Assembly (NCBI GenBank): GCA_022730075.1
Contig: DZBX01000001.1
Coordinates: 30,691-81,199 of the forward strand
Direction of reading: 5' to 3'
DNA length: 50,509 nt
From: Rhodanobacter sp.
GTDB taxonomy: Bacteria; Pseudomonadota; Gammaproteobacteria; Xanthomonadales; Rhodanobacteraceae
The notes under the pieces were generated by a model. The model did not search any database, had not been told where the DNA came from, and saw only the letters and a program-made list of their open reading frames with translations. The position numbers were made by a program, and so were the translations under genes. Of the stretch, positions 576-17,076 are shown piece by piece. Position 1 is the first letter of the stretch, and the number at the start of each line of letters is the position of its first letter.

Positions 576-3500
576 TCAATCGTGCGCGAGCGCGCGCTGG
601 GCGCGATGCTGCTCGATGAACGCCAGACACGCCGGCCCGGGCATCGGTTGCGCCAGCAGATAACCCTGCACCTCGTCGCAATCCTTCTCGCGCAGGTATT
701 CGAGCTGCTCGGGTGTTTCCACGCCCTCGGCCACCACGTTCAGTCCCAGCGCATGCGCCATCAGCACGATGGTGCCGAGGATGGTTTCGTCATCGACGCT
801 GAGGGTGAGTTTGGAGACGAAGGTCTGATCGATCTTGAGGGTATCCAGCGGCAGGCGCTGCAGGTAGGCCAGTGATGAATAGCCGGTACCGAAGTCGTCG
901 ATGGCCAGGGTGACGCCGACATTGTTGATGGCCTCCAGAATGGCGCGCGCGCGTTCCGGATCCTGCATCAGCATGCTCTCGGTCAACTCCAGTTCCAGCA
1001 GTTCCGGGGCGATGGCGTGGCGCGCCAGTGTCTCGAACAGGTAATTGCTGATGTCACCGCGCGCGAGCTGTGCCGCCGACAGATTGACCGCCATGGTCAC
1101 GTCCTTGAGTCCGGTCGCGCACCATGTGGCCAGCTCGGCGCAGGCGCGTTCGATCACGAACTCGCCGATGGCGCTGATCAGGCCGATTTCCTCGGCCAGC
1201 GGAATGAACAGCGACGGCGGGATGCTGCCGAACTCCTCGCTGTGCCAGCGCAGCAGCGCCTCGACGCCGGTGATGCGATCTTCGGCCAGGCTCAGCTTGG
1301 GCTGATAGACCAGGTGCAGTTCCTCGCGTTTGAGCGCGCGTTGCAGCGCCGCGATCAGATCGGCGCGCTGGCGCACCTCGGTGTCCAGCGCCTCGGTGTA
1401 GACAGCGAACGTATTGCGGCCGCGTTCCTTGGCGCGGTACATGGCGATATCGGCGTACTTGAGCAGATCGGTGGGCGCCTGGCCGTGCGTTGGATAAAGC
1501 GCGATGCCGATCGAAAGCGAAATCTGCGCCTCGCGCCCGTCGCCGAGGTCCATCGGTTCGGCAAACACTTGCAGCAATTTCTGCGCGATGTCCTCGGCGT
1601 CGCTGGTTTGCGCCACGCGCTCCAGCACCACCGTGAACTCGTCGCCGCCCAGCCGCGCCACGGTGTCGTCGTCGCGCACCACCGCGCGCAGGCGGCGTCC
1701 GGCCGCCTGCAGCACGCGATCGCCGACGCTGTGGCCGTGCGCGTCGTTGACGTGCTTGAAGCGGTCCAGATCGACGAACAGCACGGCCACCAGGCGCCCC
1801 ATCTGACGTGCGCGCAGAATGGCGTCGCCGAGGCGCTCGGTGAGCAGGGTGCGATTGGGCAGGCCGGTCAACGGATCGTAGTTGGCGAGATAGTGCAATT
1901 CCTGCTCGGCGCGGCGGCGCGCGGTGACATCGGTGAGCACGGCGACGAAATGCGTGCGCTGACCATGGGCGTCGCGGATCTCGTTGACCTCGATACGGCA
2001 CAGGATGGGCTCGCCATCGCGCTTGCGTTGCCAGAGTTCGCCGTGAAAGTGGCCGCTGCTTTCGAGTTTGGCGCGTACCTGCAGGAACGCCTCGGGCTGG
2101 TCCGGACTGTCGAGCAGGCTGGAGGGTTGCCCGAGGATGTCCTGCGCGGTGTATCCGGTCATGCGCGTGAACGCCGGGTTGACCGCAACGAAGTGCATCG
2201 TTGCGTCGGTGACCGCGACCGCCTCGCCCATCGAGCGCACCACCAGGTCCGAGATCGAGCGTTCGCGCTCGCGCGCCAGCTCGCTGCTGATGTCGCGCGA
2301 GGTGCCGATGACACGCAGCGGGCGGCCCTCGGCGTCGGATTCACTGATCTTGCCGCGCGCGCGTATCCATAGCCATTGACCGTCGGCGCCGCGCAGGCGG
2401 TGCTCGGATTCGTAGAACGGCGTGTGCCCGGCGAGGTGCTCGGCGAGGTTGTGTTCCAGTTGCGGCAGATCGTCGGGGTGCACCGCGTAGCGGCGCCAGT
2501 CCTCGATGGTGAGCACATCCTCGCGCGGCCCGCCCAGCAAGTGCATATCGCCCATGCGGCTCAGCACGCCGCGCTGCAGATCCAGTTCCCACAGTGCATC
2601 ACCCGAGCCCCACAAGGCCAGCTTCAGGCGCTCCTCGCGCGCGGCGCTGTCCTGCCGATAGCGACGCTCCGTGCGACGCCGGTTCCAGGTCATGCCGATC
2701 AGCAGCAGCACACCACCACCGGCCAGCAACGCATACAGCGCGCGCATGGCCGGGCTGTCCCACCACGGCGGCACCACGCTCAGGGACAGACGCGCGGGCG
2801 GCGCGAGCTGGGCCCCGGCGCCGGTGCTGGCGGCGACCTCGAAGGTGTAGCGGCCGGCGTCGAGGTCGGCATAGGACACCCCGCGCGTTGGCGCCGGCGC
2901 GCTCCAGCGGGTGCTGCGGCCAAGCAGGCGGTAGCGGTACAGGCCCGCCTCGGGGTGGCGGTAGTCGAGGCTGGCGAAGCGGATGCGCACTGGCTGGCCC
3001 AGCGCCACGCGCAGGTTGCCGGTGCGCGGCGGCACGCGCTCGCCCTGATCACCGATGCGCAGCGCGGTCAACTGCACGTTGTCGGGCACGTCGGGTTGCT
3101 TGCGCAGTGCCGCGCCGACGGTGAAGCCCTCGGGTCCGCCGAAAGCGATGCTGCCGTCATCCAGGCGCGTGCAGGTGCCGGCATTGGATTCCATGCCATT
3201 GATGCCGTCACGCCGGCCATAACGCACGATGCGGCCGCTGGCCGTGTCCAGCGCGGCGATACCGAGATTGGTGCCGATCCACAGCGTGCCTCGTGGTTGC
3301 TCGACCAGGCAGTAGATGACGTCGTCCGGCAGGCCCTGGCGCAAGCCGTAGTGCTGGAAGCGCGCCTGTCCACCGCGCACGCCCAGCAGGCGATCCAGGC
3401 CGTCACCGGTGCCGACCCAAAGCGTTCCACCGCTACTGCGCGCCAGGCTGATCACCTCGTCGTTGCTGAGGCTGTCGGCTTGTCCTGGCTGATGTCGAAA

Positions 3501-5159
3501 CGCCTGCAATCGATCGTGTTGCCACAGCAGCAGTGCATCGTTGCTCGCGATCCATACCCCGCCCTGGTCGGCGGTGGCGAAGCCGAAGGCGTGCGGAAAG
3601 CGCGCATTGCCCGGTGGCGGCGGCAGCCACTGCGGCGCGGCCATGCCGGGGCGCCATCGCGCCACGCCGCGCACCGCGCCAGCCAACCAGAGCGTGCCGT
3701 CGGGCGCCTGCCAGACCGTGTACAGCCACTGCCCCGGCACCGGGTTGCCGGGGTCGCTGGCATAGGCGGGCTGCGTCACGCCGGTGGCCGGATCGAACTG
3801 CAGCAGGCCGGCATTGCTTGCCAGCCAGAGTTTGTCGTCGCCCGGCTGGCGCACGATGCCCTCCACCGCCAATCCGGGCACCGCGGGTGTGCCCAGCGGC
3901 GGTCTGCCTGGTGCGCGGTCGGCCAGCGCCGGCAACAGCAGCGGGGTGTAATCGTTCAATGTCTGCGTGCGCGCGTCGTACAGCATCAGACCGGCATGCG
4001 AGCCGATCCAGAGTTTGCTGGCGCCGCCGGGTGCCAGCGCACGGATGAAATTGGCGCGATCCTCGGGGTCGTTGCGATCCGGCACGGTGACCGACTGGAA
4101 GCGCGCGCCACGCGGGTCGGTATGCACCACGCCGGCCATGCCGGCGATGGCCCACAGGGTTCCGTCACGGCTGACCAGCAATTGACGCAACACGCCCGGT
4201 GGCAGTTCGCCGCGCACGCCGTGGCGCGAGGGCACGCGTTGCAGCAGATCCCCGGCCAGGCGCAGCAGGCCGCCGTCATCGGGCGCGATCCACAGCGCAC
4301 CGCTGGCATCCTCGGCCAGCGCATGCACGCCGGCAGGCGCAGCGCCCGTCTCTGGCCACAGTCGTGACCAGCCATTGCTGGCCAGCGCGAACAGGCCGGC
4401 GCGGGTGCCCAGCAGCAGTTGGCCGCGCGGCGTGCACAGCAGCGCCTGGCCACTGCCGTCGAGCTTGTCGGGCAGCGCCAGCGCGGTGGCTGCCGGCCGC
4501 GCCAGATCCACGCGCAGCAGATTGCCATCGGCCAGCGCGTAGGCGGTCGTGGTGCCGCAGGCGCTCAAGGCTTGCGCTCCCTCGGCGTCCGCAGGTGCCT
4601 GCCAGAGGACGTGCAGGCGTGACTGGCGGCCGTCCCACAGGCTCACGCCGGCCGGTCCCGCCATCAACAGGCGCGCATCCGGCAAGCTCAGCAGCGCGGA
4701 TCCCGGGCCGGGCGCGCGCAGGCCGGCCGGCAGCGGCAACGGCCCGCGCGCCGGGTCGAACAGCAGCAGTCCCGGTGCGGCCGAATCTCGGCTCGCTGCG
4801 GCCGTCGACAGCCACAGGCGTCCGTCGCCGGCGCCAGCGATGGCGGCGATGGCCGGCGCGGTGCTGCCGTGGCGGGTTCCGCCATCGAGAAACGACAACA
4901 AGTGGTGACCGTCGAAACGGTACAGCGCGGACGGCGCGGCAATCCAGATGAAACCCTCGGCATCCTGGTAAATGCTGCTGACACCGGATTGCTGCAAGCC
5001 GTCGTTGGCGCCGATGCGCTCGAAATAATAGTGACTGATCGCCACCGTGTGCCGCACCGGTACCGCCGCCTGCGCGTGATCCCGCGGCGCCAGCAGCAGG
5101 GTACCCAACCCCAGCGCGAAGGCCAGAGCGTGCAAGGCGCGCGTGGTACCTGCCGACAT
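576..5159 (-). CDS. Membrane sensor with beta-propeller, Y_Y_Y, PAS-PAS, GGDEF and EAL domains
   Basis: A 1527-residue dual-domain cyclic-di-GMP enzyme. Order: signal peptide (about 1-30); periplasmic two-component-regulator-type propeller repeats (about 35-690) with recurring GxLWxA/GT motifs; a Y_Y_Y domain (about 700-790); one membrane helix (about 798-823); two PAS domains (about 840-1085); GGDEF (about 1095-1255); EAL (about 1270-1515). The cyclase motif GGDEF near residue 1170 is intact, and an RxxD inhibitory site (RDDD) lies five residues before it. The phosphodiesterase motifs EALLRW (near 1300), DDFGTGYSS and EGVET are also intact, so both activities are possible. The reading frame stays open to 5489, but the ATG at 5159 is chosen because it directly precedes the signal peptide and lies downstream of a TACACT -10-like box (5187-5192). 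An ATG at 5204 is the alternative. The ligand sensed by the propeller is unknown. Confidence 0.93.
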   Translation of the reverse strand: MSAGTTRALHALAFALGLGTLLLAPRDHAQAAVPVRHTVAISHYYFERIGANDGLQQSGVSSIYQDAEGFIWIAAPSALYRFDGHHLLSFLDGGTRHGSTAPAIAAIAGAGDGRLWLSTAAASRDSAAPGLLLFDPARGPLPLPAGLRAPGPGSALLSLPDARLLMAGPAGVSLWDGRQSRLHVLWQAPADAEGAQALSACGTTTAYALADGNLLRVDLARPAATALALPDKLDGSGQALLCTPRGQLLLGTRAGLFALASNGWSRLWPETGAAPAGVHALAEDASGALWIAPDDGGLLRLAGDLLQRVPSRHGVRGELPPGVLRQLLVSRDGTLWAIAGMAGVVHTDPRGARFQSVTVPDRNDPEDRANFIRALAPGGASKLWIGSHAGLMLYDARTQTLNDYTPLLLPALADRAPGRPPLGTPAVPGLAVEGIVRQPGDDKLWLASNAGLLQFDPATGVTQPAYASDPGNPVPGQWLYTVWQAPDGTLWLAGAVRGVARWRPGMAAPQWLPPPPGNARFPHAFGFATADQGGVWIASNDALLLWQHDRLQAFRHQPGQADSLSNDEVISLARSSGGTLWVGTGDGLDRLLGVRGGQARFQHYGLRQGLPDDVIYCLVEQPRGTLWIGTNLGIAALDTASGRIVRYGRRDGINGMESNAGTCTRLDDGSIAFGGPEGFTVGAALRKQPDVPDNVQLTALRIGDQGERVPPRTGNLRVALGQPVRIRFASLDYRHPEAGLYRYRLLGRSTRWSAPAPTRGVSYADLDAGRYTFEVAASTGAGAQLAPPARLSLSVVPPWWDSPAMRALYALLAGGGVLLLIGMTWNRRRTERRYRQDSAAREERLKLALWGSGDALWELDLQRGVLSRMGDMHLLGGPREDVLTIEDWRRYAVHPDDLPQLEHNLAEHLAGHTPFYESEHRLRGADGQWLWIRARGKISESDAEGRPLRVIGTSRDISSELARERERSISDLVVRSMGEAVAVTDATMHFVAVNPAFTRMTGYTAQDILGQPSSLLDSPDQPEAFLQVRAKLESSGHFHGELWQRKRDGEPILCRIEVNEIRDAHGQRTHFVAVLTDVTARRRAEQELHYLANYDPLTGLPNRTLLTERLGDAILRARQMGRLVAVLFVDLDRFKHVNDAHGHSVGDRVLQAAGRRLRAVVRDDDTVARLGGDEFTVVLERVAQTSDAEDIAQKLLQVFAEPMDLGDGREAQISLSIGIALYPTHGQAPTDLLKYADIAMYRAKERGRNTFAVYTEALDTEVRQRADLIAALQRALKREELHLVYQPKLSLAEDRITGVEALLRWHSEEFGSIPPSLFIPLAEEIGLISAIGEFVIERACAELATWCATGLKDVTMAVNLSAAQLARGDISNYLFETLARHAIAPELLELELTESMLMQDPERARAILEAINNVGVTLAIDDFGTGYSSLAYLQRLPLDTLKIDQTFVSKLTLSVDDETILGTIVLMAHALGLNVVAEGVETPEQLEYLREKDCDEVQGYLLAQPMPGPACLAFIEQHRAQRALAHD

Positions 5160-5274
5160 GACGATCCGATGGGCCCCGTTGCGGCGAGTGTAGGCAATCC
5201 GCATGCGAGCGGCTAGGCTGATCGCTGCGCCTCGCCATGACACATCCGTACCGCACTGATGGATATTGCCCCGC

Positions 5275-5820
5275 ATGACCACCGCCCCTGACCACCCGGC
5301 ATTGAGCCAGGCCCTGAACGCCGCGCGCGCGCCCGTAAGCGCCAGCGAGCTGCATGGCGGCATCACCGCGCTGGCCAGCGCGCTGGCGCCGGAGCAAGCC
5401 ATGCGCGAACTGGACGCGCAATTGGAGGATGTTGCCGGAAGCGCGGCAGATGCGCTGCGCGACCTGGCACGCGCTTGCATGAGGGACACGCAACGCGCCT
5501 TGGGCGATCCCGATCTGAGCTATGTGCCACTGCTGCCGGAGGGTGAGGCGCCACTGCCGGATCAGGCCGTGGCACTGGTGGATTTCTGCCGCGGATTCCT
5601 GGAAGGTTTGGGTCTGGCCGGCGTCGGCGCGGGTCAGCGCCTGCCGGCGGAAGTCGACGAGGTGCTACGTGCATTTGCCGAGCTTGGTTCCGGCCCGGTG
5701 ATGTTGGACGACGATGCCGGCGATCTGGAAGCACTCACCGAGCTGGTCGAGTTCGTGCGCGTCGGCGTGATGCTGGTGCATGCCGAGTTGGGCGTCGACG
5801 TGGACCGCGCCGCGACATGA
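5275..5820 (+). CDS. UPF0149 (YgfB/YecA) family protein
   Basis: A 181-residue acidic alpha-helical protein. The segments ELHGGITALASAL, YVPLLPEGEAPLPDQAVAL and DFCRGFLEGLGLAG are typical of UPF0149, whose members are commonly encoded directly before pepP. Its biochemical role is unclear. The ATG at 5275 is preferred over an in-frame TTG at 5266. No ribosome-binding site is visible, but a GATATT box at 5262-5267 would place transcription start at about the A of this ATG, so the message may be leaderless. The stop overlaps the pepP start (ATGA, 5817-5820), indicating translational coupling. It is divergent from the GGDEF-EAL gene. Confidence 0.85.
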   Translation: MTTAPDHPALSQALNAARAPVSASELHGGITALASALAPEQAMRELDAQLEDVAGSAADALRDLARACMRDTQRALGDPDLSYVPLLPEGEAPLPDQAVALVDFCRGFLEGLGLAGVGAGQRLPAEVDEVLRAFAELGSGPVMLDDDAGDLEALTELVEFVRVGVMLVHAELGVDVDRAAT

Positions 5821-7154
5821 GTGCTCCGCGCTTGATCGGCGTGCGTGAATACGCGCGTCGGCGTCGCGAACTGATGCGCATGGCCGGTGCCGATGCCGCC
5901 ATCCTGCTGGCCGCCGCGCCGCCGCGCCTGCGCAATGGCGATACCGCGTGGCCGTATCGCCAGGATTCCGATTTCCTGTACCTCAGCGGGTTCGACGAGC
6001 CCGCCGCGGTGTTGGCGCTGTTGCCGGGCCGCCAAGCCGGACAGAGCGTGCTGTTCTGCCGCGAGCGCGAACCTGCGCAGGAACGCTGGGACGGCGCCTG
6101 GCGCGGTCCGGAGGGCGCGGTACGCGAACTGGGCCTGGATGACGCGTTTCCGATCGCCGACATCGACGACATTCTGCCCGGCATGCTCGAAGGCCGCGCG
6201 CGCCTGTATTGCCACTTCGGTCGCGAGGCTGCATTCGACGCGCAGCTGCTGGCCTGGCTGCGGCGCTTGCGCGCCATGCCGGGCGCGGCGCAGGCGCCGC
6301 AGGAAATGCTGGCACTGGGCCACCTGCTGCACGAGCTGCGCCTGTTCAAGTCGCCGGCCGAGCTGGGCCTGCTGCGGCATGCGGCCAACCTCGGCATGGA
6401 GGCGCACCGTGTCGCGTGGGCGGCGCTGGTGCCGGGCGCGACCGAGTTCGCCATCGAGGCCGATTTCGTGCATGCGCTGCGCCACGCGGGCGCGCAGCCC
6501 AGTTATCCGCCGATCGTCGCCGGCGGGCGCAATGCCTGCGTGCTGCACTACGCGCGTAACGACGCGCCGCTGCGCGCGGGTGAGCTGCTGCTGCTGGATG
6601 GCGGCGCCGAATGGCAGGGCTATGCCTCGGACATCACCCGCACGTTGCCGGTGAGCGGGCATTTCAGTGCGCCGCAACGCGCGCTTTATCAACTGGTGCT
6701 GGACGCGCAGCGCGCGGCGCTGGCGCGGATCCGCCCCGGGCAAAGCTGGGAGGCTTTTCATCAGGCCGCGCGCGAGGTGCTCATCGCCGGCCTGTGCGCG
6801 CTGGGCCTGCTCAAGGGCACGCCTGCGCAGGCGCTGGCCAGCGGCGTCTACCGGCGATATTTTCCGCACAAGACCGGGCATTGGCTGGGGCTGGATGTGC
6901 ACGACGCCGGTGATTACCGCATCCACGGCGAGCCGCGCCTGCTGGAACCCGGCATGGTGCTCACGGTCGAACCGGGGCTATATATCGCGCCCGATGAGCG
7001 CAACGCCCCGGCGCGTTATCGCGGCATCGGCATCCGCATCGAGGATGATGTCGTGGTCACCGCGCACGGCGCCGAGGTGCTGACCATGGCGTTGCCCAGC
7101 GATCCCGATGCGTTGGAGGACGCCCTGGCGTCCGCTCGCAGCCACACCCATTGA
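5817..7154 (+). CDS. pepP: Xaa-Pro aminopeptidase (aminopeptidase P, M24B)
   Basis: A cytoplasmic metallopeptidase that removes an N-terminal residue preceding proline. The 445-residue length is typical of bacterial PepP. The N-terminal creatinase-like domain (about 1-175) contains YRQDSDFLYLSGFDEP. The pita-bread catalytic domain carries the expected five metal ligands: Asp261 (LLLDGGAE), Asp272 (SDITRT), His355 (HKTGHWLGLDVHD), Glu385 (VEPGLYI) and Glu409 (RIEDDV). The ATG lies inside the stop codon of the UPF0149 gene, so the two are probably translated together. In many relatives ubiquinone hydroxylase genes (ubiH) follow pepP; here an AcvB/VirJ gene begins five bases after the stop. Confidence 0.96.
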   Translation: MSAPRLIGVREYARRRRELMRMAGADAAILLAAAPPRLRNGDTAWPYRQDSDFLYLSGFDEPAAVLALLPGRQAGQSVLFCREREPAQERWDGAWRGPEGAVRELGLDDAFPIADIDDILPGMLEGRARLYCHFGREAAFDAQLLAWLRRLRAMPGAAQAPQEMLALGHLLHELRLFKSPAELGLLRHAANLGMEAHRVAWAALVPGATEFAIEADFVHALRHAGAQPSYPPIVAGGRNACVLHYARNDAPLRAGELLLLDGGAEWQGYASDITRTLPVSGHFSAPQRALYQLVLDAQRAALARIRPGQSWEAFHQAAREVLIAGLCALGLLKGTPAQALASGVYRRYFPHKTGHWLGLDVHDAGDYRIHGEPRLLEPGMVLTVEPGLYIAPDERNAPARYRGIGIRIEDDVVVTAHGAEVLTMALPSDPDALEDALASARSHTH

Positions 7155-7159
7155 CCTCC

Positions 7160-8581
7160 ATGAAAATCCTGTCGAGTCCGATCATGCGCAAGCCCCGTTT
7201 CGCCCTGTTGCTGGTTGCCCTGATGCTGTCGATCGCTGCCATTGCCACGCCGCCGCGCGTGCAGGCCGCGCAGCAGCCGCCCATCGCCGACGCCACCTAT
7301 GGCGCGCACATCATCAACTACGGGCTGTTCGGCCCGGTGCGCGTGTATCAGCCGATGGGCACGCCGCGGCGTGCGCTGATCGTGTTCTCGCGTGCCTCCG
7401 GCTGGGGCGTCAACGAGGCGCGCTACGCCACCGGCCTGCAGCAGGCCGGCAGCCTGGTGATCGGTGTCGATCTGCCGCGCTATCTGAAAACGCTGGAAGC
7501 GCTCAAGGGCAAGTGCAGCTACCCGGCCGGGCATGTCGAGGAGCTGTCGCACTGGATGCAGAAGACGCTCAAGCTGCCGGTCTATCTGCGCCCGTTCATC
7601 GTCGGCTTCGACGGCGGCGCCGACTTCACCTACGCGCTGGGCGTGCAGGCGCCGGCGGGCACTTTCGCCGGCATGGCCACGCTGGGCTGGGACGGTCGCT
7701 TCACCCTGCGCAAACCGCTGTGCAAGGGCGACGCCGGCAACGCCACCGTGGCGCAGGGCAAGGCGTTCGGATTCACCCCGGTGAAACCCCTGCCGCTGCC
7801 GTGGCTGGCCGCGGGCAGCCCCGGCGCGCATGAAATCGGTCCGCCCGTGGCCTTCGGGCGTGCGCAGCGCGCACCGGCCGATGGTGCGCTGCTGGCTGCC
7901 GAACTCGATGCACTGGTGCGCAAGCCGACGCTCAGCGCCGGCGCCTTCGCCGACAAGCTCGACGACCTGCCACTGACCGAGATCGCGCCGGTCGGCAAGC
8001 CGGATGGCCGCGTGGTGATCATGTTCAGCGGTGACGGCGGCTGGGCCGGGCTGGACAAGGGCGTGGCCAAGGTGCTGTCCATGCATGGCGTGCGCGTGGT
8101 CGGGCTGAGTTCGCTGGAATACTTCTGGCACAAGAAGACGCCCACCGAAACCGCGCAGGCGCTGGCGCGCATCCTCGCCGCCTATACCGCGCGCTATCCC
8201 GACGCGCGCTACACGCTGATGGGTTACTCGTTCGGCGCCGGCGTGGTGCCGGTGGTGTACAACCTGCTGCCAGCGGAACTCAAGCAGCACATCGATGCCG
8301 AGGTGCTGGTTTCGCCCGATCCCGAAGGCTGGTTCGACATCCACATCGGTGACTGGTTCGGCACCACGCGGCACGAGTTCAATGTGCCACTGGATCCGGA
8401 GATCGCGCGTACGAAGATCCCCGTCATTTGCCTGTCCGGTCAGAGCGAGGGCCACAAGACCTATTGCGACAGCCTGGCCGAACGTCACATGGCGCGGCTG
8501 ATCACCCTGCCGGGCGGCCACCACTACGAAGGCGATTACGACCGCCTTGGCCAGGTGATCCTGCAGGCGCTGCCGAAGTAG
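7160..8581 (+). CDS. acvB: AcvB/VirJ family serine hydrolase, probable lysyl-phosphatidylglycerol hydrolase
   Basis: A 473-residue exported alpha/beta hydrolase of the long AcvB form, with two related halves. A hydrophobic signal sequence (FALLLVALMLSIAAIA) is followed by an N-terminal domain (YGAHIINYGLFGPVRVYQP). The catalytic half contains MFSGDGGWAGLDKG, the nucleophile motif GYSFGA with Ser357, and a C-terminal LPGGHHYEGDY that supplies the likely catalytic histidine. In Agrobacterium, AcvB hydrolyses lysyl-phosphatidylglycerol in the periplasm. The same role is inferred here because the gene meets mprF, the synthase gene, tail to tail with a 10 bp gap. The start is uncertain: ATG 7160 is five bases after pepP, while ATG 7184 (MRKPRF) gives a neater signal peptide. 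Transcription with pepP is likely. Confidence 0.88.
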   Translation: MKILSSPIMRKPRFALLLVALMLSIAAIATPPRVQAAQQPPIADATYGAHIINYGLFGPVRVYQPMGTPRRALIVFSRASGWGVNEARYATGLQQAGSLVIGVDLPRYLKTLEALKGKCSYPAGHVEELSHWMQKTLKLPVYLRPFIVGFDGGADFTYALGVQAPAGTFAGMATLGWDGRFTLRKPLCKGDAGNATVAQGKAFGFTPVKPLPLPWLAAGSPGAHEIGPPVAFGRAQRAPADGALLAAELDALVRKPTLSAGAFADKLDDLPLTEIAPVGKPDGRVVIMFSGDGGWAGLDKGVAKVLSMHGVRVVGLSSLEYFWHKKTPTETAQALARILAAYTARYPDARYTLMGYSFGAGVVPVVYNLLPAELKQHIDAEVLVSPDPEGWFDIHIGDWFGTTRHEFNVPLDPEIARTKIPVICLSGQSEGHKTYCDSLAERHMARLITLPGGHHYEGDYDRLGQVILQALPK

Positions 8582-8591
8582 GGCGGGCGGG

Positions 8592-11210
8592 TCAGGGCAG
8601 CAGCATGCGCCGGTAGCCGCCGGCGACCAGCGCGGCGACATCGGTGAGCAGTGCCGGCACCCACAGGCCGCGCGGATAGGCCAGGTACGCCCCGACCCAC
8701 TCGGGGCGGAATTTTTCCTTGTAGCGGCGCACGCCCTGGTAGTTGTAGAAGCGGTTGCCGTGGCGGAAGGCCAGCGCGGCCAGGCGCTCGTTGAGGCGCG
8801 CGTAGGGCGTGGTGCCGACGTTCGACAGCGGCGCCATGCCCAGGCTGAAGGATGCGTAGCCCTGCTGCTTGGCCCAGTTCAGCGCGTGCGCGAACACCAG
8901 GTCCATGGTGCCGCGTGGTGCGTCGGGCAGGTGCCGCATCAGGTCGATGGCGGCGACGCCCTGTGCGCCGTAACCGGGCATCAGACTGGCGAAGGCGATC
9001 AGCTCGTCCTCGCGGTACACCAGCGCCAGCGGGCCACGCGCCAGATAGGCCGCGTCGAAGCGGCCCAGCGAATAACCTTTCTCGGCGACGCCCTTGTCGG
9101 CCAGCCAGGCATCGGACACGCGCTCCAGAGCGGCCAGCAGCGCACTGTCGTAGGGCGCTTCCGCGAGACGGAATTCGAGCTTCTCGCGCGGCGCGCGGTT
9201 GATCGCCTGGCGCAGGTCCTCCCAGCGCTTGCCGCTCATCGAAAAATCCGCCAGCGGGATCAGCGCCAGTTCGCCCAGCTTGAACAGGTCGAAGCCGAGA
9301 TCGTGGAAGCGCGCCAGATCCGGCTCCAGTACCGCGTAGAACACCGGCGCGCAGCCCATGCTGTCGGCATGGCGGCGAAAATCGAGAATCGCCTGTGCCT
9401 GCGCCGCAGGGTCGCCGCAGGGCGCGCCCAGCGCGATCAGGCGATGACGCACGCTGCCGTAGGCGATCAGGGTGCGATGCCCGGCGCCCCAGAACAGATG
9501 CTTGTCGCCCATGAGGTTCAGGTGCGCGAACGCACCGCCGCCGTACTGCGCGTAAAACGCACGCACGCGTTCCAGTTCCGCGTGATCCGGCAGCGGCAAC
9601 TTGGGCCGGCGTATCGCGAACGCATGCCAGGCCAGGTACAAGGCCAAACCGAGCAGCGCCGCGCCCAGCCCGCGCGCCAGGCGCGAGGCGTGCGCATAGG
9701 CGCCGGTGGCGAGCAGATCGAAACTGTCCTGACCGAGAATATCCGCCACGCCCACGGCGAAGAACGCCGCGACCACCAGCAGCAGACCGAGCAGCCAGCC
9801 CAGGCTGACCGCTGAGGTCATGGCCACCGCGCGCTGGCTGAAGTCCTGGCGGCGCGCGCGCAGCAGCAGCGACACCGCCAGCAGAAACAGCGCCTCGCCC
9901 CAGTGCAGGCCCTTGAGCAGCACCAGCAGCGCGGCCAGCCACAGCAGCCACTGCACCGCGCGATAGGCCACGCGCAGACGCCCGTCGATGCCGCGCGCCA
10001 GACCCAGCAGCAGCACGCCGATGACGATGCTCAGCCAGTGCGAGCCCTCCAGCACCGGCATGCTGATGAAGCCCGCGGCATGCACGAAGCGCTGGTGCAG
10101 ACTGGGCAGCGCCGCCGAGATCAGCAGCAGCACGCCGGCGGCAAAGGTGAGCAAGGCCAGCACGCGGATGCCGAAATTGGCCAGGTAGCCGGCCGGCACC
10201 ACCAGCAGCTCGATCAGCGGATGCGCGGCCATGCGCTCGCGCAGGCGTGTCAGTGCCGGCATGCGTTGCGCCAGCATGCCGGCGCCCAGCCACAGCGCCA
10301 GCAGCATCGGCAGCAGGTAATACACCACGCGGAACAGGAACAGCCCGGCGCCCGCCGCGGCCACCGGTACGCCGGCGATGCTCAGCGCCAGCAGCAGCAG
10401 ACCATCGAACACGCCGAGACCGCCGGGGATCATGCTCACCAGGCCCAGCGTGGCCGCCGCACCGAATGCCGCCAGCAGCTGCAGCGGCGGCACCTGCGCG
10501 CCGGCCAGATGCAGGCACAGCCACAGCGTGGCCGCGGCCAGCACCCAGTCGATCAGCGACAGCAGCGCCAGGTGCGCGCGCAGCGCCAGCGGCGGTACGC
10601 CCAGGTCCGCGGGCAGCCAGCCCATCAGTTTGCGTCGCCCGGTAAGAACGAAATACAGCGGCAGGTACAGGGCCGCGGCCAGCAGCACCAGTAGTGCCAG
10701 CACGCGGCTAGCGTGGTTGGGCGTGGCCGGCAGGTGGCCGCTGGCCAAGGCAATGATGACCAGCACCGACAGGCCCAGCGGCAGCGACAGGATCTGCAGG
10801 CCGACCAGCGCGGCGCCGCTGCGCAGGGTGATGCCGTGACCCTTCAGCCCGAGCAGACGCACGCCCGAGCCCACCGCGCCGGAGAGGTTGAGCGTGTTGG
10901 CCAGCGCATTGGCCACGAATGACAGCCGCAGCAGCGGCAGGGTGGCGATGGGAAACTTCAACCAGCGCGCGATGGCCAAGTCGATCAGCCCGGTGTACGC
11001 CACCGCCGCCAGCGCGAACGCCGCCACGCCCGCGGCATCCAGCGTGGGAATGCGGATCAACGTGCGCTGCAGGCTGCGCAGATCGAACGCCGACAGCTCG
11101 CGCCCGGCCAGCACGAAGGTGACGACCAGCAGCACCAGTGGCAGCAGCCAGCGCAGCACGCGCAGCCAGGACGAACGGTGCGCCGAGGGCGCGACGGGGG
11201 TGGGTTGCAT
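8592..11210 (-). CDS. mprF: MprF: bifunctional lysylphosphatidylglycerol synthase/flippase
   Basis: An 872-residue integral membrane protein with the two-part MprF architecture. Residues 1 to about 540 hold some 13-14 hydrophobic segments, including the flippase-type LSFVANALANTLNLSGAVGSG and MIPGGLGVFDGLLLL. Residues from about 545 form the cytosolic GNAT-like DUF2156 aminoacyltransferase domain, with FSLGMAPLSNVG and the near C-terminal RYKEKFRPEWVGAYLAYP. Family members transfer lysine, or sometimes alanine, from aminoacyl-tRNA to phosphatidylglycerol and flip the product outward, lowering surface negative charge and raising resistance to cationic peptides. The amino acid used here cannot be read from sequence. 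The gene is convergent with the acvB-like hydrolase and lies downstream of a phosphoesterase gene, separated by 172 bp that contain repeat copy A. Confidence 0.95.
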   Translation of the reverse strand: MQPTPVAPSAHRSSWLRVLRWLLPLVLLVVTFVLAGRELSAFDLRSLQRTLIRIPTLDAAGVAAFALAAVAYTGLIDLAIARWLKFPIATLPLLRLSFVANALANTLNLSGAVGSGVRLLGLKGHGITLRSGAALVGLQILSLPLGLSVLVIIALASGHLPATPNHASRVLALLVLLAAALYLPLYFVLTGRRKLMGWLPADLGVPPLALRAHLALLSLIDWVLAAATLWLCLHLAGAQVPPLQLLAAFGAAATLGLVSMIPGGLGVFDGLLLLALSIAGVPVAAAGAGLFLFRVVYYLLPMLLALWLGAGMLAQRMPALTRLRERMAAHPLIELLVVPAGYLANFGIRVLALLTFAAGVLLLISAALPSLHQRFVHAAGFISMPVLEGSHWLSIVIGVLLLGLARGIDGRLRVAYRAVQWLLWLAALLVLLKGLHWGEALFLLAVSLLLRARRQDFSQRAVAMTSAVSLGWLLGLLLVVAAFFAVGVADILGQDSFDLLATGAYAHASRLARGLGAALLGLALYLAWHAFAIRRPKLPLPDHAELERVRAFYAQYGGGAFAHLNLMGDKHLFWGAGHRTLIAYGSVRHRLIALGAPCGDPAAQAQAILDFRRHADSMGCAPVFYAVLEPDLARFHDLGFDLFKLGELALIPLADFSMSGKRWEDLRQAINRAPREKLEFRLAEAPYDSALLAALERVSDAWLADKGVAEKGYSLGRFDAAYLARGPLALVYREDELIAFASLMPGYGAQGVAAIDLMRHLPDAPRGTMDLVFAHALNWAKQQGYASFSLGMAPLSNVGTTPYARLNERLAALAFRHGNRFYNYQGVRRYKEKFRPEWVGAYLAYPRGLWVPALLTDVAALVAGGYRRMLLP

Positions 11211-11299
11211 GCGGCGCTGCGGGTTGAGCGGAGCGCTATCCTCGCATCCGCGCCGTTGGCTGTCAGCAAGCCGGTCGCAAGTGGCGCGAAGGCGCTCGG

Positions 11300-11387
11300 C
11301 GCCGATGAGAAATCCCGCGTCGTGCGGAATTTCTCATCGCTCATCCGTGGCCGGGCCGAGAGGCTGAAAAATCCACAGCCTCTCAGC
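11300..11387 (-). repeat. Structured interspersed repeat, copy A (right end decayed)
   Basis: Read on the minus strand, the element begins with the TGA stop codon of the phosphoesterase gene. A perfect hairpin follows: GAGAGGCTG, a 9-base loop, CAGCCTCTC. The middle palindrome seen in the other copies is degraded here. Next comes the long hairpin GAGAAATTCCGC / GCGGGATTTCTC with one mismatch. Compared with copies B and C, the second position of each arm has changed in a compensating way (A-T pair to G-C pair). The expected right terminal inverted repeat (AGGCTCTGA) is replaced by unrelated sequence, so this copy is truncated or diverged. Confidence 0.85.
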
Positions 11388-12924
11388 CGAAGCGCGCCGC
11401 GCGCGGTGTCCGCTCGAAGTCGAGTCCGTCCAGCAGGTCGTAGGCGCCGGCATCGCGCGGCGTCAGCGGCGCCAGGCCGAAGCGGGTTTCGATCAGCTTC
11501 AGGATCGAGGCGCTGTCGGCCATGCGATGGTCCACATGGCCGGGGCGGGCATAGGCCGACACCAGCAATGCCGGAATGCGTGTTCCGCAGCCGTAGTCGT
11601 CCACGCGCGGCGGCGCCACGTGGTCCCACATGCCGCCGCCTTCGTCGTAGGTCAGCACGACCAGGGTCTTCGACCACGCCGGACTGGCCGCCAGCGCGCG
11701 CAGGATCGCGCCGGTCCACTGCTCGCCCCAGCGCGGCGTGGAGTCGGCAGGGTGCTCGTCGTGCGCGCCGGTGGCCTTGACGAAGGACACCGCGGGCAGG
11801 CGTCCGTCGCGCAGGTCGGCGAACAGGTCGTTGCTATCGCGCATGTGCCCGGCGCGCACGTTGTCGTACCAGCTCGGGTAGTACTGGAACGGATTGTGGT
11901 GCGCCGTATAGTCGTAGCTGCTGTCGAGGATGGCGGAACCATCGCCCGGACCGAAGGCACTTTTCAGCGCCCACGGTTTCACCGCATCCCAGTGCTCGTT
12001 GTACCAGGCCCAGCCGACCCCGGCCGCGTTGAGACGGTCACCGATGTTGGCGTAGCGCTGCTCGTCCGGCGGCGGCGCGATCTTCAGCTGCCGCAGCGAC
12101 GTGCTGGTCGGGCCCTGCACCGGCGACAGGTCGTTGATCAGCACGCCGTGCCGGTCATAGGGCAGGTCGAACAGCGGTGGATCGAGCTGGCCGCGCAGAT
12201 TGGCCGGCGCCTGCCGCCAGAGCGCCGAACGCGCCGCCGCCAGGCACAGTGCGTTGGCGGTCGAGCCGCCGGCGAAAGCCTGGAAGAAATGATCGAACAG
12301 CACGTAATCGTCGGCGAGCTGGTGATAGAACGGAATGTCCGCGCGCGTGTAGTGGCCCAGCACGGCGCCCGAGGGGCGTGACTGCTCGAACTCCAGGCGC
12401 ACCGCATCCGTGTCGCCCAGGCGGATCTGCTCGCTGGCCTTGCTGTGCCTGGCCAGGGCCAGCGCCACGAACAGGTCCATGCGCCCGTGGTGCATCTGCT
12501 TGAGCATGCGGAAGTGCGCGTGCTGGGGATCCCAGGGCACGCGCGCGTCGGCGGGGATGTACGGCGCGATGTGGAACGGCAGGTTGGGCAGCAGCGCGGT
12601 ATCGAAGCCGGGCAGGTTGTCCGGCAGCGGCAGATAACCGTAGGGCATGCCGGCCGGGTTCACCTGCAGATCGCGGAACCGCGCATGCACCTGGCCCGTC
12701 GCGTCGAGCAGGTTGTCCACCGCGGCGCCGCGCGGATTGCGGTAGGTGCCGAAGTAATGATCGAAACTGCGGTTCTCCTGGAACAGCACGATGATGTGCT
12801 CGATCTTGTCCTTGAGGCCGCGACGATTGCCCGGCGCGGCCGCCCATGCGTGGCGTGCCAGCGGCGCCGCGGCCAGCGCCGCGCCGCCGAGCGCCAGGGT
12901 CTTCAGGAATTCACGACGCTCCAT
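11383..12924 (-). CDS. Tat-exported phosphoesterase (phospholipase C / acid phosphatase AcpA superfamily)
   Basis: A 513-residue enzyme of the PF04185-type phosphoesterase family. A twin-arginine signal opens the protein (MERREFLKTLALGGAALAAA, cleavage near AWA), so it should be exported folded. HIIVLFQENRSFDHYFGTY is the family's N-terminal metal-site signature, and VVLTYDEGGGMWDHVAPP its C-terminal counterpart. Members act as phospholipase C or acid phosphatase; the substrate cannot be decided here. The ATG at 12924 is chosen over the upstream start because the Tat motif follows at once and GGAG sits seven bases before it. The stop codon is the first three bases of repeat copy A. The mprF gene lies 172 bp downstream on the same strand, a context that points to phospholipid metabolism. 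Confidence 0.88.
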   Translation of the reverse strand: MERREFLKTLALGGAALAAAPLARHAWAAAPGNRRGLKDKIEHIIVLFQENRSFDHYFGTYRNPRGAAVDNLLDATGQVHARFRDLQVNPAGMPYGYLPLPDNLPGFDTALLPNLPFHIAPYIPADARVPWDPQHAHFRMLKQMHHGRMDLFVALALARHSKASEQIRLGDTDAVRLEFEQSRPSGAVLGHYTRADIPFYHQLADDYVLFDHFFQAFAGGSTANALCLAAARSALWRQAPANLRGQLDPPLFDLPYDRHGVLINDLSPVQGPTSTSLRQLKIAPPPDEQRYANIGDRLNAAGVGWAWYNEHWDAVKPWALKSAFGPGDGSAILDSSYDYTAHHNPFQYYPSWYDNVRAGHMRDSNDLFADLRDGRLPAVSFVKATGAHDEHPADSTPRWGEQWTGAILRALAASPAWSKTLVVLTYDEGGGMWDHVAPPRVDDYGCGTRIPALLVSAYARPGHVDHRMADSASILKLIETRFGLAPLTPRDAGAYDLLDGLDFERTPRAARFG

Positions 12925-13002
12925 GGGCAGGCTCCGCAATCAGGTCAGAGCAGGCTAGTGCGACGCACATGACGGTTACAAGGCATGCGCATCGCAACAT
13001 GC

Positions 13003-13461
13003 TTACGCGTGGTTCGCCGTCGATGCGTCGAGCAGCTTGTCGAGGATGCGCGTGAGGCAGGCGCGCTCGTCGGCGTCGAGTCGCGCCAGCAGCTGGCGTT
13101 CATGCGCGCGCGCGCGCGGCGCGACGACGGCGTGGATGGCCCAGCCCCTGGCCGAAAGGCGCAGCACCGAGCGCCGCTTGTCGCCGCGGTGCGTGCGCCG
13201 CAGGACGCGGCCGGCGGCGATCAAGCGTGCCAGCGCGCGGCTCACCGCGACCTTGTCCATCGCGGTGCGTTCGGCCAGCTCGCGCGCCGACAGGCCCTCG
13301 GCGTCGTAGCGTGCGAGCACGGCGATCACGCGCCACTCGGTCATGCCCAGATGGAAGCGCTGCTGGTATTCGCGCGCGATCGCCTGGCTGACCGTGTTGC
13401 TCAAGATCGAAAGCCGGTAGGGCAGGAACGCTTCCAGTTGCAACGGGGCGTGATCAGGCAT
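13003..13461 (-). CDS. MarR family transcriptional regulator
   Basis: A 152-residue winged-helix regulator. The helix-turn-helix region TEWRVIAVLARYDAEGLSAR followed by ELAERTAMDKVAVSRALARL is typical of MarR, and the wing follows as RRTHRGDKRRSVLRLSARG. ATG 13461 has GGATG about ten bases upstream; an ATG at 13473 is less likely because GGATG would overlap it. The gene is divergent from hppD with 84 bp between the starts, and an inverted repeat in that gap (13476-13489) is the best operator candidate. Control of the tyrosine-degradation genes is inferred from this arrangement, as commonly seen in xanthomonads. The frame remains open far upstream through the antisense of hppD-hmgA-fahA, which is an artefact. 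Confidence 0.88.
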   Translation of the reverse strand: MPDHAPLQLEAFLPYRLSILSNTVSQAIAREYQQRFHLGMTEWRVIAVLARYDAEGLSARELAERTAMDKVAVSRALARLIAAGRVLRRTHRGDKRRSVLRLSARGWAIHAVVAPRARAHERQLLARLDADERACLTRILDKLLDASTANHA

Positions 13462-13475
13462 GGTGCGGCGCATCC

Positions 13476-13489
13476 TGCAAATGGTTGCA
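13476..13489. promoter_or_regulatory. Candidate MarR operator between the regulator gene and hppD
   Basis: A perfect inverted repeat, TGCAA-ATGG-TTGCA, lies in the divergent gap. It ends eight bases before a TATACT -10-like box (13498-13503) that could serve hppD, so a bound repressor would cover the -35 region. It also sits just upstream of the regulator start, consistent with autoregulation. Assignment is by position and symmetry only. Confidence 0.5.
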
Positions 13490-13545
13490 TCTGAAACTAT
13501 ACTGCTGCGCACGATGGCGCAAGCGCCTTGACACAGGAGATCCGC

Positions 13546-14634
13546 ATGAGCGCGCAACCCAATGTCGGCATGCAGCCGGTGCAGTTCGAAAATCCCATGG
13601 GGGTCGATGGTTTCGAGTTCGTCGAGTTCGCCGCCCCCGATGCGGCGCTGTTGCACACGCTGTTTCCCAGGCTCGGTTTCAGCGCCGTCGCGCGCCACCG
13701 CACGAAGCGGGTGACCCTGTACCGCCAGGGCGATTGCAATTTCCTGGTCAATGAAGAGCCCGGTTCCTTCGCCATGGATTTCGCGCGCCAGCACGGGCCG
13801 TGCGCAGCGGGCTTCGCGATCCGCTTCAGCAAACCGGCGGCGTGGGTACGCGCGCAGGCGCTGGCCAATGGCGGCGAGGCGATCGCCGCGCTCGAACACA
13901 CCAAGGCCATCGACGCGCCGGTGATCAAGGGCATCGGCGGCTGCATGCTGTATCTGGTCGATCGCCATGGCGCCAAAGGCAGCGCCTACGACGCCGAGTT
14001 CGAATACCTGCCTGATGTCGAGCGCAATCCCCAGGGTTCTGGCCTCACCTTCATCGACCACCTCACCCACAATCTGCGTTTTGGCCACATGCAGCAGTGG
14101 TCGCAGTACTACGAACGCCTGTTCAACTTTCGCGAGATCCGCTACTTCGACATCAAGGGCGCGAAGACCGGGCTGGTGTCCAAGGCGATGACCGCGCCGG
14201 ACGGCATGGTGCGCATCCCGCTCAACGAGTCGTCCGATCCGAAAAGCCAGATCAACGAGTACATCGACGAATACAAGGGCGAAGGCATCCAGCACATCGC
14301 CTGCTTCACCGATGACATCCACGCCACGGTTGAGGCCATGCGCGCCGCGGGTGTCGATTTTCTCGACACACCCGACGCCTATTACGAAGTGATCGACCGG
14401 CGCATACCCGGGCACCACGAGGATGTGCCGCGCATGGCGCGCAACAAGATCCTGATCGACGCCGATCAGGAAACGCACAAGAAACTGCTGCTGCAGATTT
14501 TCACGCAGAACTGCATCGGCCCGATCTTCTTCGAGATCATCCAGCGCAAGGGCAACCTCGGTTTCGGCGAGGGCAATTTCCAGGCTTTGTTCGAATCGAT
14601 CGAGCGCGAGCAGATCAAGCGCGGGGTGTTGTAA
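13546..14634 (+). CDS. hppD: 4-hydroxyphenylpyruvate dioxygenase
   Basis: Converts 4-hydroxyphenylpyruvate to homogentisate with Fe(II) and O2, the second step of tyrosine breakdown, in the cytoplasm. The 362-residue protein has two vicinal-oxygen-chelate domains. The iron triad is visible as His172 (TFIDHLTHNLRFGHM), His250 (GIQHIACFTDDI) and Glu330 (GPIFFEIIQRKGNLGFGEGN). The ATG at 13546 follows AGGAGATCCGC, a good ribosome-binding site, and is preferred over a TTG at 13528. It is first in the hppD-hmgA-fahA cluster and divergent from the MarR gene, its likely regulator. Confidence 0.97.
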   Translation: MSAQPNVGMQPVQFENPMGVDGFEFVEFAAPDAALLHTLFPRLGFSAVARHRTKRVTLYRQGDCNFLVNEEPGSFAMDFARQHGPCAAGFAIRFSKPAAWVRAQALANGGEAIAALEHTKAIDAPVIKGIGGCMLYLVDRHGAKGSAYDAEFEYLPDVERNPQGSGLTFIDHLTHNLRFGHMQQWSQYYERLFNFREIRYFDIKGAKTGLVSKAMTAPDGMVRIPLNESSDPKSQINEYIDEYKGEGIQHIACFTDDIHATVEAMRAAGVDFLDTPDAYYEVIDRRIPGHHEDVPRMARNKILIDADQETHKKLLLQIFTQNCIGPIFFEIIQRKGNLGFGEGNFQALFESIEREQIKRGVL

Positions 14635-14671
14635 CCCGGCTGGCCACACGATCTGTCCTGCCTTGTGTGAT

Positions 14672-14691
14672 ACCCGGCCGTGCGGCCGGGT
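14672..14691. other. Intercistronic hairpin between hppD and hmgA
   Basis: ACCCGGCC-GTGC-GGCCGGGT forms a perfect 8 bp stem with a 4-base loop. No T-run follows, so it is not a canonical intrinsic terminator. It lies in the 93 bp gap of an otherwise collinear cluster and could stabilise the hppD message or partly attenuate transcription. No function can be assigned from sequence alone. Confidence 0.5.
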
Positions 14692-14727
14692 CGTACCTAC
14701 TCTGACCCGCAGCAAAGGTCCCGTCCC

Positions 14728-16038
14728 ATGATCGACACGCTGCAATACCAATCGGGTTTCGGCAACGAATTCGCCAGCGAGGCGCTGCCCGGCGCACTGC
14801 CGCAAGGCCAGAATTCGCCGCAGCACGTGCCTTACGGGCTGTACGCCGAGCAATGGTCCGGCACCGCGTTCACCGCGCCGCGGCATCGCAACCGGCGTTC
14901 GTGGCTGTACCGCATCCGCCCGGCGGCGATGCACGCGCCATTCGCGCTGCTGCCCGAGGCGCGCTTGCACAACCGTTTCGACGAGGCGCCGGCCACGCCC
15001 AACCAGCTGCGCTGGGACCCGTATCCGTTGCCGTCCGCGCCCACCGATTTCGTCGAAGGCATGTTCACCATGGCCGGCAACGGCGGGCCTGCCGGGCAGA
15101 CCGGCGTGGGCATCCACATGTATGCCTGCAACCGCGCGATGCAGGGGCGCTACTTCTACGACGCCGATGGCGAGCTGCTGATCGTGCCGCAGCACGGGCG
15201 CCTGCGCATCGCCACCGAGCTGGGCGTGCTGGTGATCGCGCCGCTGGAGATCGCGCTGATCCCGCGCGGACTGCGTTTCGCGGTGACGCCACTGGATGGC
15301 GTCGCGCGCGGCTACGTCGCGGAGAACTTCGGCGCGCCGATGCGCCTGCCCGAGCTGGGCCCGATCGGCGCCAATGCGCTGGCCAACGCGCGCGACTTCC
15401 TCGCGCCGGTGGCGGCCTACGAGGATCTCGAGGGCGAGTTCGAGCTGATCGCCAAGTTCCAGGGCCGGCTGTGGCGGGCCGCCATCGACCATTCGCCGCT
15501 GGACGTGGTCGCATGGCATGGCAACGACACGCCCTGCAAGTACGATCTGGCGCGCTTCAACACCGTCGGCTCGATCAGCTACGACCACCCCGACCCGTCG
15601 ATCTTCACCGTGCTCACCGCGCCCAGCGATACGCCGGGCACCGCCAACATGGACTTCGCGATTTTTCCGCCGCGCTGGCTGGTGGCCGAGCACACCTTCC
15701 GCCCGCCGTGGTTCCATCGCAACGTGGCCAGCGAATACATGGGTCTGATCCAGGGCGAGTACGACGCCAAGGGCGCCGGCGCCGGCGGTTTCAGCCCGGG
15801 TGGCGCCAGCCTGCACAATTGCATGAGCGGGCACGGTCCCGATGCCGCCGCCCACGCCAAGGCGCTGGCGCTGGATGCCGCGCAGCCGCAGCATCTCACC
15901 GAGACCATGGCCTTCATGTTCGAGACGCGGGCGGTCATCAACCCCACCGCGCAGGCGCTGGCGTTGTCCGCACTGCAGGCCGACTACTGGCGCTGCTGGC
16001 AGGGCCTGGGCAGACACTTCGACCCCACGCGCCGCTGA
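14728..16038 (+). CDS. hmgA: Homogentisate 1,2-dioxygenase
   Basis: Cleaves the aromatic ring of homogentisate to maleylacetoacetate with Fe(II) and O2. The 436-residue length is normal for the family. The N-terminus [19 protein letters not shown] is highly diagnostic. The iron ligands are visible as His330 and Glu336 ([20 protein letters not shown]) and His369 (NCMSGHGPD). The ATG at 14728 is chosen because the conserved N-terminus starts there. It follows hppD by 93 bp and precedes fahA by 27 bp, in pathway order. Loss of this enzyme typically causes pigment build-up in other bacteria. Confidence 0.97.
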
Positions 16039-16065
16039 GCGTCGCACCGATCCGATGGAGTACGC

Positions 16066-17076
16066 ATGAAACTCGCATCCCTCAAACAAGGTGGCCGCGA
16101 TGGCAGCTTGATCGTGGTCGCGCGCGACCTGTCGCGCGCGCTGCGCGCCGATGGCATCGCGCCGACGCTGCAAGCGGCGCTGGACGATTGGCAGCGCATC
16201 GCGCCACGCCTGAACGCCCTGGCCGAAGCACTGCAGGCGGGCACCGTCGCGGGCAGTTTCGCGCTGGATTGCAGCGCGCTGGCCGCGCCGCTGCCGCGGG
16301 CCTATGAGTTCGTCGATGGCAGCGCCTATCTGCCGCACGTCGAGCGTGTGCGCAAGGCGCGCGGCGCCGAAATGCCGCCCAGCTTCTACACCGATCCGCT
16401 GATGTACCAGGCCACCAGCGCCGGCTTTTACGGCCCGCGCGATCCGCTGCTGGCGGCCAGCGAGGACTGGGGCATCGACATGGAAGCCGAGGTGATCGTG
16501 GTCACCGACGACGTGCCCATGGGGGTGACGCCGGCGCAGGCGTCCGCGCACATCCAACTGCTTGGTCTGGTCAACGATGTCAGCCTGCGCAATCTGATCC
16601 CGGCCGAGCTGGCCAAGGGTTTCGGCTTCCTGCAGTCCAAGCCGCGCTCGGCGTTGTCGCCGGTGCTGGTGACACCGGATGAGCTGGGTGCGGCGTGGCG
16701 CGACGACAAACTGCACCTGCCCATGCGCACCTGGATCAACGGCCAGTGGTTCGGTGCCGCCGAGTGCGGTGAGGACATGCAATTCAGTTTTGCCGAGCTG
16801 ATCGCGCACGCGGCGAAAACGCGCCCGCTGGCGGCCGGAACGATCGTCGGGTCGGGCACCATCGCCAACCATGACACCGCGCGCGGTGCCTCGTGCCTGG
16901 CCGAACAGCGCACGGTGGAGACCCTGCGCGATGGCAAAGCCTCCACGCCGTACCTGGTTTTCGGCGATGTGCTGCGCATCGAGATCAGCGATGCGCAGGG
17001 GCACAGCATTTTCGGCGCCATCGAGCAGCGCGTCACGCGCGCGCCGCTGCCCGCAGGCGGGGCCGAGAGGCTGTGA
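16066..17076 (+). CDS. fahA: Fumarylacetoacetate hydrolase family protein
   Basis: Performs the last step of homogentisate degradation, releasing fumarate and acetoacetate. The 336-residue bacterial two-domain form contains EFVDGSAYLPHVERVRKARG, the metal-site region DWGIDMEAEVIVVTDDVPMG and GTIVGSGTIANHD. GGAG lies shortly before the ATG. The last residues (GAERL) and the TGA stop are encoded by repeat copy B, so the natural C-terminus appears altered slightly, outside the catalytic core. No maleylacetoacetate isomerase gene (maiA), often found in this cluster, is present in the window; it may lie elsewhere in the genome. Confidence 0.94.
   Translation: MKLASLKQGGRDGSLIVVARDLSRALRADGIAPTLQAALDDWQRIAPRLNALAEALQAGTVAGSFALDCSALAAPLPRAYEFVDGSAYLPHVERVRKARGAEMPPSFYTDPLMYQATSAGFYGPRDPLLAASEDWGIDMEAEVIVVTDDVPMGVTPAQASAHIQLLGLVNDVSLRNLIPAELAKGFGFLQSKPRSALSPVLVTPDELGAAWRDDKLHLPMRTWINGQWFGAAECGEDMQFSFAELIAHAAKTRPLAAGTIVGSGTIANHDTARGASCLAEQRTVETLRDGKASTPYLVFGDVLRIEISDAQGHSIFGAIEQRVTRAPLPAGGAERL

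Follow-up and report, generated by a model that had tools for sequence, protein, structure and literature searches.

The window analysed here is a stretch of 50,509 nucleotides from Rhodanobacter sp. (assembly GCA_022730075.1, contig DZBX01000001.1, positions 30,691 to 81,199). In it, two genes face each other tail to tail: mprF, for a predicted aminoacyl-phosphatidylglycerol (aminoacyl-PG) synthase and flippase, and virJ, also called acvB, for a predicted periplasmic hydrolase of the same lipid. This locus probably holds both halves of an aminoacyl-PG cycle, with virJ likely carried on the transcript of its upstream neighbours ygfB and pepP, and mprF on a transcript of its own. By its sequences the locus belongs to a Rhodanobacteraceae-type lineage with its own clades of MprF and VirJ, here called type B.

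7160 to 8581, plus strand: virJ/acvB, 473 amino acids, two alpha/beta-hydrolase domains, the N-terminal one degenerate and the C-terminal one with the catalytic set; predicted periplasmic aminoacyl-PG hydrolase.
8582 to 8591, no strand: intergenic gap of 10 bp between the stops at 8581 and 8592, tail to tail.
8592 to 11210, minus strand: mprF, 872 amino acids, type B clade; predicted aminoacyl-PG synthase and flippase.

A first-pass annotation of this DNA had described the pair as convergent MprF and AcvB/VirJ genes with a 10-bp gap. The stop positions bear out the arrangement, and Pfam, NCBIfam and the PDB agree on the two families. MprF scores 705.8 bits over its full length against NF033480 (bifunc_MprF), above the curated equivalog cut-off of 600. 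It contains PF09924 and PF03706, the synthase and flippase domains, and matches MprFs in the PDB at E about 1e-88. The virJ open reading frame spans 7151 to 8581 on the plus strand, where the ATG at 7160 is the likely start. Its product matches PF06057 (E 1.5e-51, 175 bits) and, across both domains, the AcvB crystal structure 9xhm (E 4.6e-49). An AlphaFold2 model of VirJ (predicted local distance difference test score, pLDDT, 85) has Brucella VirJ domain 1 as its top PDB match in Foldseek. AcvB 9xhm is missing from that Foldseek list though the sequence search finds it, and no conclusion is drawn from this. The N-terminus of VirJ is basic and hydrophobic, with a helix at residues 14 to 26 in the model, and looks like that of an exported protein.

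In the proposed cycle, MprF would transfer an amino acid from aminoacyl-tRNA to phosphatidylglycerol (PG) in the cytoplasmic leaflet, and the product would then be flipped outward. Exported VirJ, anchored at the membrane by a Trp-Phe loop, would cut the ester with the Ser-His site of its C-terminal domain, releasing PG and the free amino acid. This hydrolysis would hold the level of the aminoacyl-lipid within bounds. The transcript of mprF would often be headed by the gene of a second hydrolase, which may also cleave the lipid in the periplasm; the assignment of all these roles is inferred from the protein families. The tail-to-tail layout, kept in the lineage, would keep the expression of both enzymes separate.

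Such a cycle is supported by the curated family cut-offs, the catalytic residues kept in both enzymes, a near-perfect co-occurrence, the convergence and the pepP-virJ adjacency kept in type B, and the single clade that each protein forms there. The activity of AcvB and VirJ and the binding of AcvB to LpiA have been published (PMC13197417, PMC13135905).

Co-occurrence was surveyed in 249 genomes of the window's order, with VirJ identified by PF06057. VirJ is found in 89 of these and MprF in 92, and all 89 VirJ genomes carry a full-length MprF. This pairing is far above chance (p about 1e-64, hypergeometric, kinship ignored). Three genomes have MprF without VirJ, two of them with partial or weak MprF matches.

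The synthase residues Ser684 and Arg742 are needed for synthesis in published work (PMC11630815). In the alignment they are kept in all 37 type B MprFs and in all 67 others, with numbering as in the Bacillus licheniformis enzyme and positions placed by spacing. In the flippase cavity (R. tropici MprF numbering: Asp234, Glu280, YRxxY), type B MprF keeps Asp234, Arg304 and Tyr307. Glu280 is replaced by Asp and Tyr303 by Phe in 41 of 41 type B sequences, both conservative changes.

The layout of the two genes varies by group. The window's family contributes 45 genomes with a collinear pair, mprF before virJ, and a different family contributes one more. In a second family, f2 (placed as Xanthomonadaceae-like), 31 of the 32 genomes have a convergent pair. 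Type B is a third group of 11 genomes, the window's included: the genes converge in 8, and in 3 they lie far apart or on different contigs. The type B forms of both genes co-occur even where they are far apart (genomes G180, G219 and G051).

A scan of named genomes added 80 loci, 26 of them type B with both genes visible. Some nearly duplicate another locus or share their species with a survey genome, which means that they count as loci and not as independent events. Type B members include Tahibacter, Dokdonella, Rudaea, Pseudolysobacter and metagenome-assembled genomes. The genes converge in all 26. At most 30 bp lie between them in 10 loci (1 bp at the least), and 0.1 to 3.8 kb in the other 16. 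The exact 10-bp gap is not special. Outside type B, the set ranges from Proteobacteria to Acidobacteriota and Verrucomicrobiota, and there the two genes share a strand at every locus that shows both. The synteny check proposed by the first-pass annotation, once run across the order, finds convergence to be real and conserved in type B, and not unique to it, f2 having it as well.

Trees were built for the hydrolase C domain and the synthase domain by a quick method, with branch support from the Shimodaira-Hasegawa-like approximate likelihood ratio test. Type B VirJ forms one clade (support 98, starred branch), as does type B MprF (100, starred). The f2 pairs form a separate clade, at 99 and starred in both trees, among collinear lineages. 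Since type B and f2 occupy separate clades in both trees, convergence probably arose at least twice; the trees do not support a single origin for the two. A long branch parts type B MprF from nearly all other VirJ-associated MprFs, and it is closer to the B. licheniformis enzyme. Its sister is uncertain owing to the long branches. The nearest type B MprF relatives outside the order are 42-46% identical. Among them, G394 is collinear and its VirJ has Asp340 and Asp370 (AcvB numbering), two lack VirJ, and in one the two genes are on separate contigs.

Upstream of virJ are two more genes on the same strand:

5266 to 5820, plus strand: ygfB-like gene (UPF0149; PF03695, E 9.9e-27), TTG start uncertain; first gene of a likely operon.
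5817 to 7154, plus strand: pepP, Xaa-Pro aminopeptidase (PF00557 and PF05195), overlapping ygfB by 4 bp; its stop is 5 bp before the virJ ATG.

Because of this 5-bp and 4-bp spacing, and because pepP and virJ stay together even with mprF elsewhere, virJ is likely co-transcribed with ygfB and pepP. Every one of the 11 type B genomes has virJ next to pepP, and in 10 of them the search used also places ygfB ahead. The same facts leave the earlier claim that each gene of the convergent pair has its own promoter without support. It had also been claimed that in relatives ubiH often takes the spot after pepP. In none of 21 genomes checked within the order does a UbiH-family gene adjoin pepP, and the idea that virJ replaces ubiH there was rejected. 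On the other side of ygfB, and divergent from it, a gene for a large propeller/PAS/GGDEF/EAL protein (576 to 5489, minus strand) is a neighbour kept in most type B loci.

The adjacency of virJ and mprF could also be incidental. virJ would then be a part of the ygfB-pepP operon with mprF merely next door, and the link between them would be metabolic or one of shared descent. This would fit the genomes in which the pair is separated, where virJ stays by pepP and not by mprF (G051, G219 and G180); in G180, of the window's genus, a DUF1993 gene sits in the place of mprF. It fits less well with a convergent pair that persists in many genera, even where other DNA has come between the two genes, or with f2, which has the same layout with a different flank. 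On balance an incidental adjacency is rather unlikely.

The short gap had been read as a sign of opposing control of membrane charge, in which the overlapping 3' ends of the virJ and mprF transcripts would repress each other. The 10 bp in the window and the ten type B loci with similarly short gaps speak for this, as does one further feature:

8688 to 8708, plus strand: terminator-like stem-loop (8-bp stem and T-run) inside the 3' end of mprF; weak candidate for the end of the virJ transcript.

The stem-loop is not conserved, however: it is missing in the closest relatives (L084, L086, L065) and others. Within 5000 to 13600 there is no sigma-70 promoter match. The 16 more widely spaced type B pairs, and the three genomes whose mprF and virJ are distant or not on one contig, also argue against such control. 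As the sole candidate terminator is not conserved, the antisense idea is without support beyond the short gap. It was rejected as very unlikely.

The VirJ active site was compared between 43 type B and 67 other sequences, in AcvB numbering, by alignment to 9xhm. In the window the relevant codons are:

8228 to 8230, plus strand: catalytic Ser357 (AcvB Ser336), in the motif GYSFGA, aligned to 9xhm.
8240 to 8242, plus strand: Gly361 at the AcvB Asp340 position, the acidic residue gone.
8318 to 8332, plus strand: Asp387 (AcvB 366) to Trp391 (AcvB Asp370), a new Asp and a hydrophobic residue at 370.
8519 to 8521, plus strand: catalytic His454 (AcvB His433), aligned to 9xhm.

AcvB residues Asp271, Ser336, Trp378, Glu410 and His433 are retained in all 43 type B VirJs. 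The membrane loop, Trp378-Leu379 in AcvB, is Trp-Phe in all of them, and an AcvB W378F/L379F variant is functional (PMC13197417). Three positions of the pocket have changed. All 43 have Ser, Gly or Ala at 340 (Gly in the window), where 66 of the 67 others have Asp, Asn or Glu. They likewise all carry Asp at 366 and either Val or Trp at 370 (Trp in the window). Asp271, Asp340 and Asp370 surround the lysyl head group in AcvB, which needs them to hydrolyse lysyl-PG (Lys-PG); of these three the window VirJ has only Asp271.

The 'lysyl' part of the first-pass annotation does not stand, given that Asp340 and Asp370 are missing from all type B VirJs. Asp370 is the published reader of the lysine side chain (PMC13197417), and by that rule type B VirJ would not be a typical Lys-PG hydrolase. 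VirJ of f2, with Asp or Glu at 370, would fit Lys-PG better, and VirJs from collinear pairs in the window's family, with Asn, Ser or Thr there, would resemble the alanyl-PG (Ala-PG) type of Pseudomonas. With a pocket that lacks Asp340 and Asp370 and has Asp366, the amino acid handled by type B VirJ is not assigned as Lys.

It could be argued from these changes that type B VirJ cleaves something other than aminoacyl-PG, such as another aminoacyl-lipid or ester, via its altered pocket. Against this, type B VirJ still has the catalytic Ser and His, Asp271, Glu410 and Trp378 of the membrane loop, and VirJ is found only together with MprF. Asp366 may also substitute for Asp340. The VirJ of Flavobacterium bizetiae (L162), from a distant lineage, pairs Ser340 with Asp366 too, the same swap as in type B, which suggests that Asp366 takes over as the acidic residue. 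A different substrate class is improbable.

Some points do weigh against the aminoacyl-PG cycle itself. The three mprF genomes without VirJ mean that the cycle is not obligatory for MprF. Asp340 is conserved among AcvB homologues of Lys-PG and Ala-PG makers alike (PMC13197417), and with its loss in type B the substrate or the binding mode may differ.

In the PDB search the full-length window MprF is equidistant from Lys and Ala enzymes, and its synthase domain is closer to the B. licheniformis Lys-PG synthase than to Pseudomonas aeruginosa MprF (261 versus 206 bits). Reading Lys or Ala specificity off the MprF sequence was dropped, there being no tested rule for it.

The putative second hydrolase is a separate protein, traced from weak PF06057 matches, with open reading frames of 281-383 amino acids and an export-like N-terminus. 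Its Ser-Asp-His motifs are intact: SGDGGW, GYSSGA, LQGxxD and GHG. In 15 of the 26 type B loci its gene immediately precedes mprF and reads in the same direction, as it does in G196, G229 and G231. In the window's genome it is displaced from mprF, and in G180 it is likewise at another place. Examples, among others, are:

L074, 13004 to 14032: gene of the free-standing hydrolase.
L107, 18004 to 18849: gene of the free-standing hydrolase.
G000:C151, 35079 to 35972 (L079, 6879 to 8030): the displaced copy of the window's genome.

Only 5 of the 249 survey genomes have it as a separate gene, and all are type B (p about 6e-8, hypergeometric, kinship ignored). An AlphaFold2 model (pLDDT 77) has Brucella VirJ domain 1 at Foldseek rank 1, and superposes on domain 1 of Brucella abortus VirJ (9rc4) with Z 22.6 and 3.3 Å over 213 residues. 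In the tree the protein groups on the N-domain side of AcvB/VirJ, apart from the C domains (a starred split at 100). Its neighbours there are intact N domains from other lineages, and the N domain of the VirJ in its own genomes lies elsewhere, several branches having low support. The same tree, with the same weak branches, does not support it as a piece split off that VirJ.

The N-domain serine is missing in AcvB and in all type B VirJs. The full N-domain Ser-Asp-His set is present in about 20 of the 50 other VirJs in the named-genome scan. VirJs of many phyla, among L115-L162, have two seemingly complete Ser-Asp-His sites, one per domain, unlike the Agrobacterium and Brucella proteins that have been studied. 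Papers from 2026 describe what the AcvB N domain does as elusive, and one suggests that the domain is left over from an ancestral hydrolase (PMC13135905). The intact N domains and the free-standing form support that idea.

A more far-reaching reading can be offered tentatively. Type B Rhodanobacteraceae may have a rebuilt aminoacyl-lipid cycle, with a head group different from that of Lys-PG and a pair of periplasmic hydrolases, each expressed on its own: VirJ, with its active C domain, from the pepP operon, and the free-standing N-domain type, with its intact triad, from the mprF operon. The 'dead' N domain of AcvB would then go back to a functional aminoacyl-lipid hydrolase, one that has stayed active in many phyla.

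The closest known system is LpiA-AcvB of Agrobacterium tumefaciens, a Lys-PG synthase/flippase and its hydrolase, with VirJ as the form on octopine Ti plasmids. These are the same two protein families as in the window. AcvB and type B VirJ are alike in having two domains with a degenerate N domain, the catalytic Ser and His, Asp271 and the membrane-loop Trp. The contrast with the collinear lpiA-acvB operon that had been noted earlier is correct (PMC13135905, PMC13197417): the window genes converge, and the hydrolase gene follows ygfB-pepP. Type B VirJ also differs from AcvB in the three pocket positions, and type B MprF is of another clade than LpiA.

Pseudomonas aeruginosa, with its Ala-PG system of MprF and PA0919, has the MprF architecture in common with the window. 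The Pseudomonas hydrolases also lack Asp370, with Thr or Ser instead (PMC13197417); unlike type B VirJ, the Pseudomonas homologues retain Asp340. The f2 pairs are tail to tail like type B, but both of their proteins are in separate clades, their VirJ has Asp340 as well as Asp or Glu at 370, and no pepP is next to their virJ. For the free-standing hydrolase, the closest PDB fold is Brucella abortus VirJ domain 1, the equivalent of the AcvB N domain. Its intact triad sets the free-standing protein apart from the N-terminal domains found in AcvB, Brucella VirJ (PMC13135905) and type B VirJ.

On the other side of mprF, a PF04185 phosphoesterase gene (phospholipase C/acid phosphatase family; 11383 to 12939, minus strand) is directly upstream on the same strand, and ends before a near-perfect inverted repeat at 11303 to 11339. 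It looks inserted, since the corresponding position lacks it in sister genomes L084, L086 and G180. Homogentisate pathway genes follow at 13003 to 17076 (HPPD, HGD and FAA hydrolase, plus strand), accompanied by an oppositely oriented gene for a MarR-type regulator; sister genomes have this cluster right next to mprF. A further lipid enzyme in the window is a patatin-like phospholipase with a cyclic-nucleotide-binding domain (NTE family; 20115 to 21854, minus strand).

The enzyme pair as such is already known. Membrane charge, fitness in acid and resistance to peptides depend on Lys-PG and Ala-PG turnover, and Agrobacterium needs the hydrolase for T-DNA transfer. Here the pair comes as a well-conserved lineage variant, with convergent genes, an altered hydrolase pocket and often a free-standing N-domain-type hydrolase; the last two are most worth following. 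The type B pocket is a clear test case for the published Lys-PG recognition rule. The free-standing protein by mprF is a natural construct that makes the unexplained AcvB N domain directly testable.

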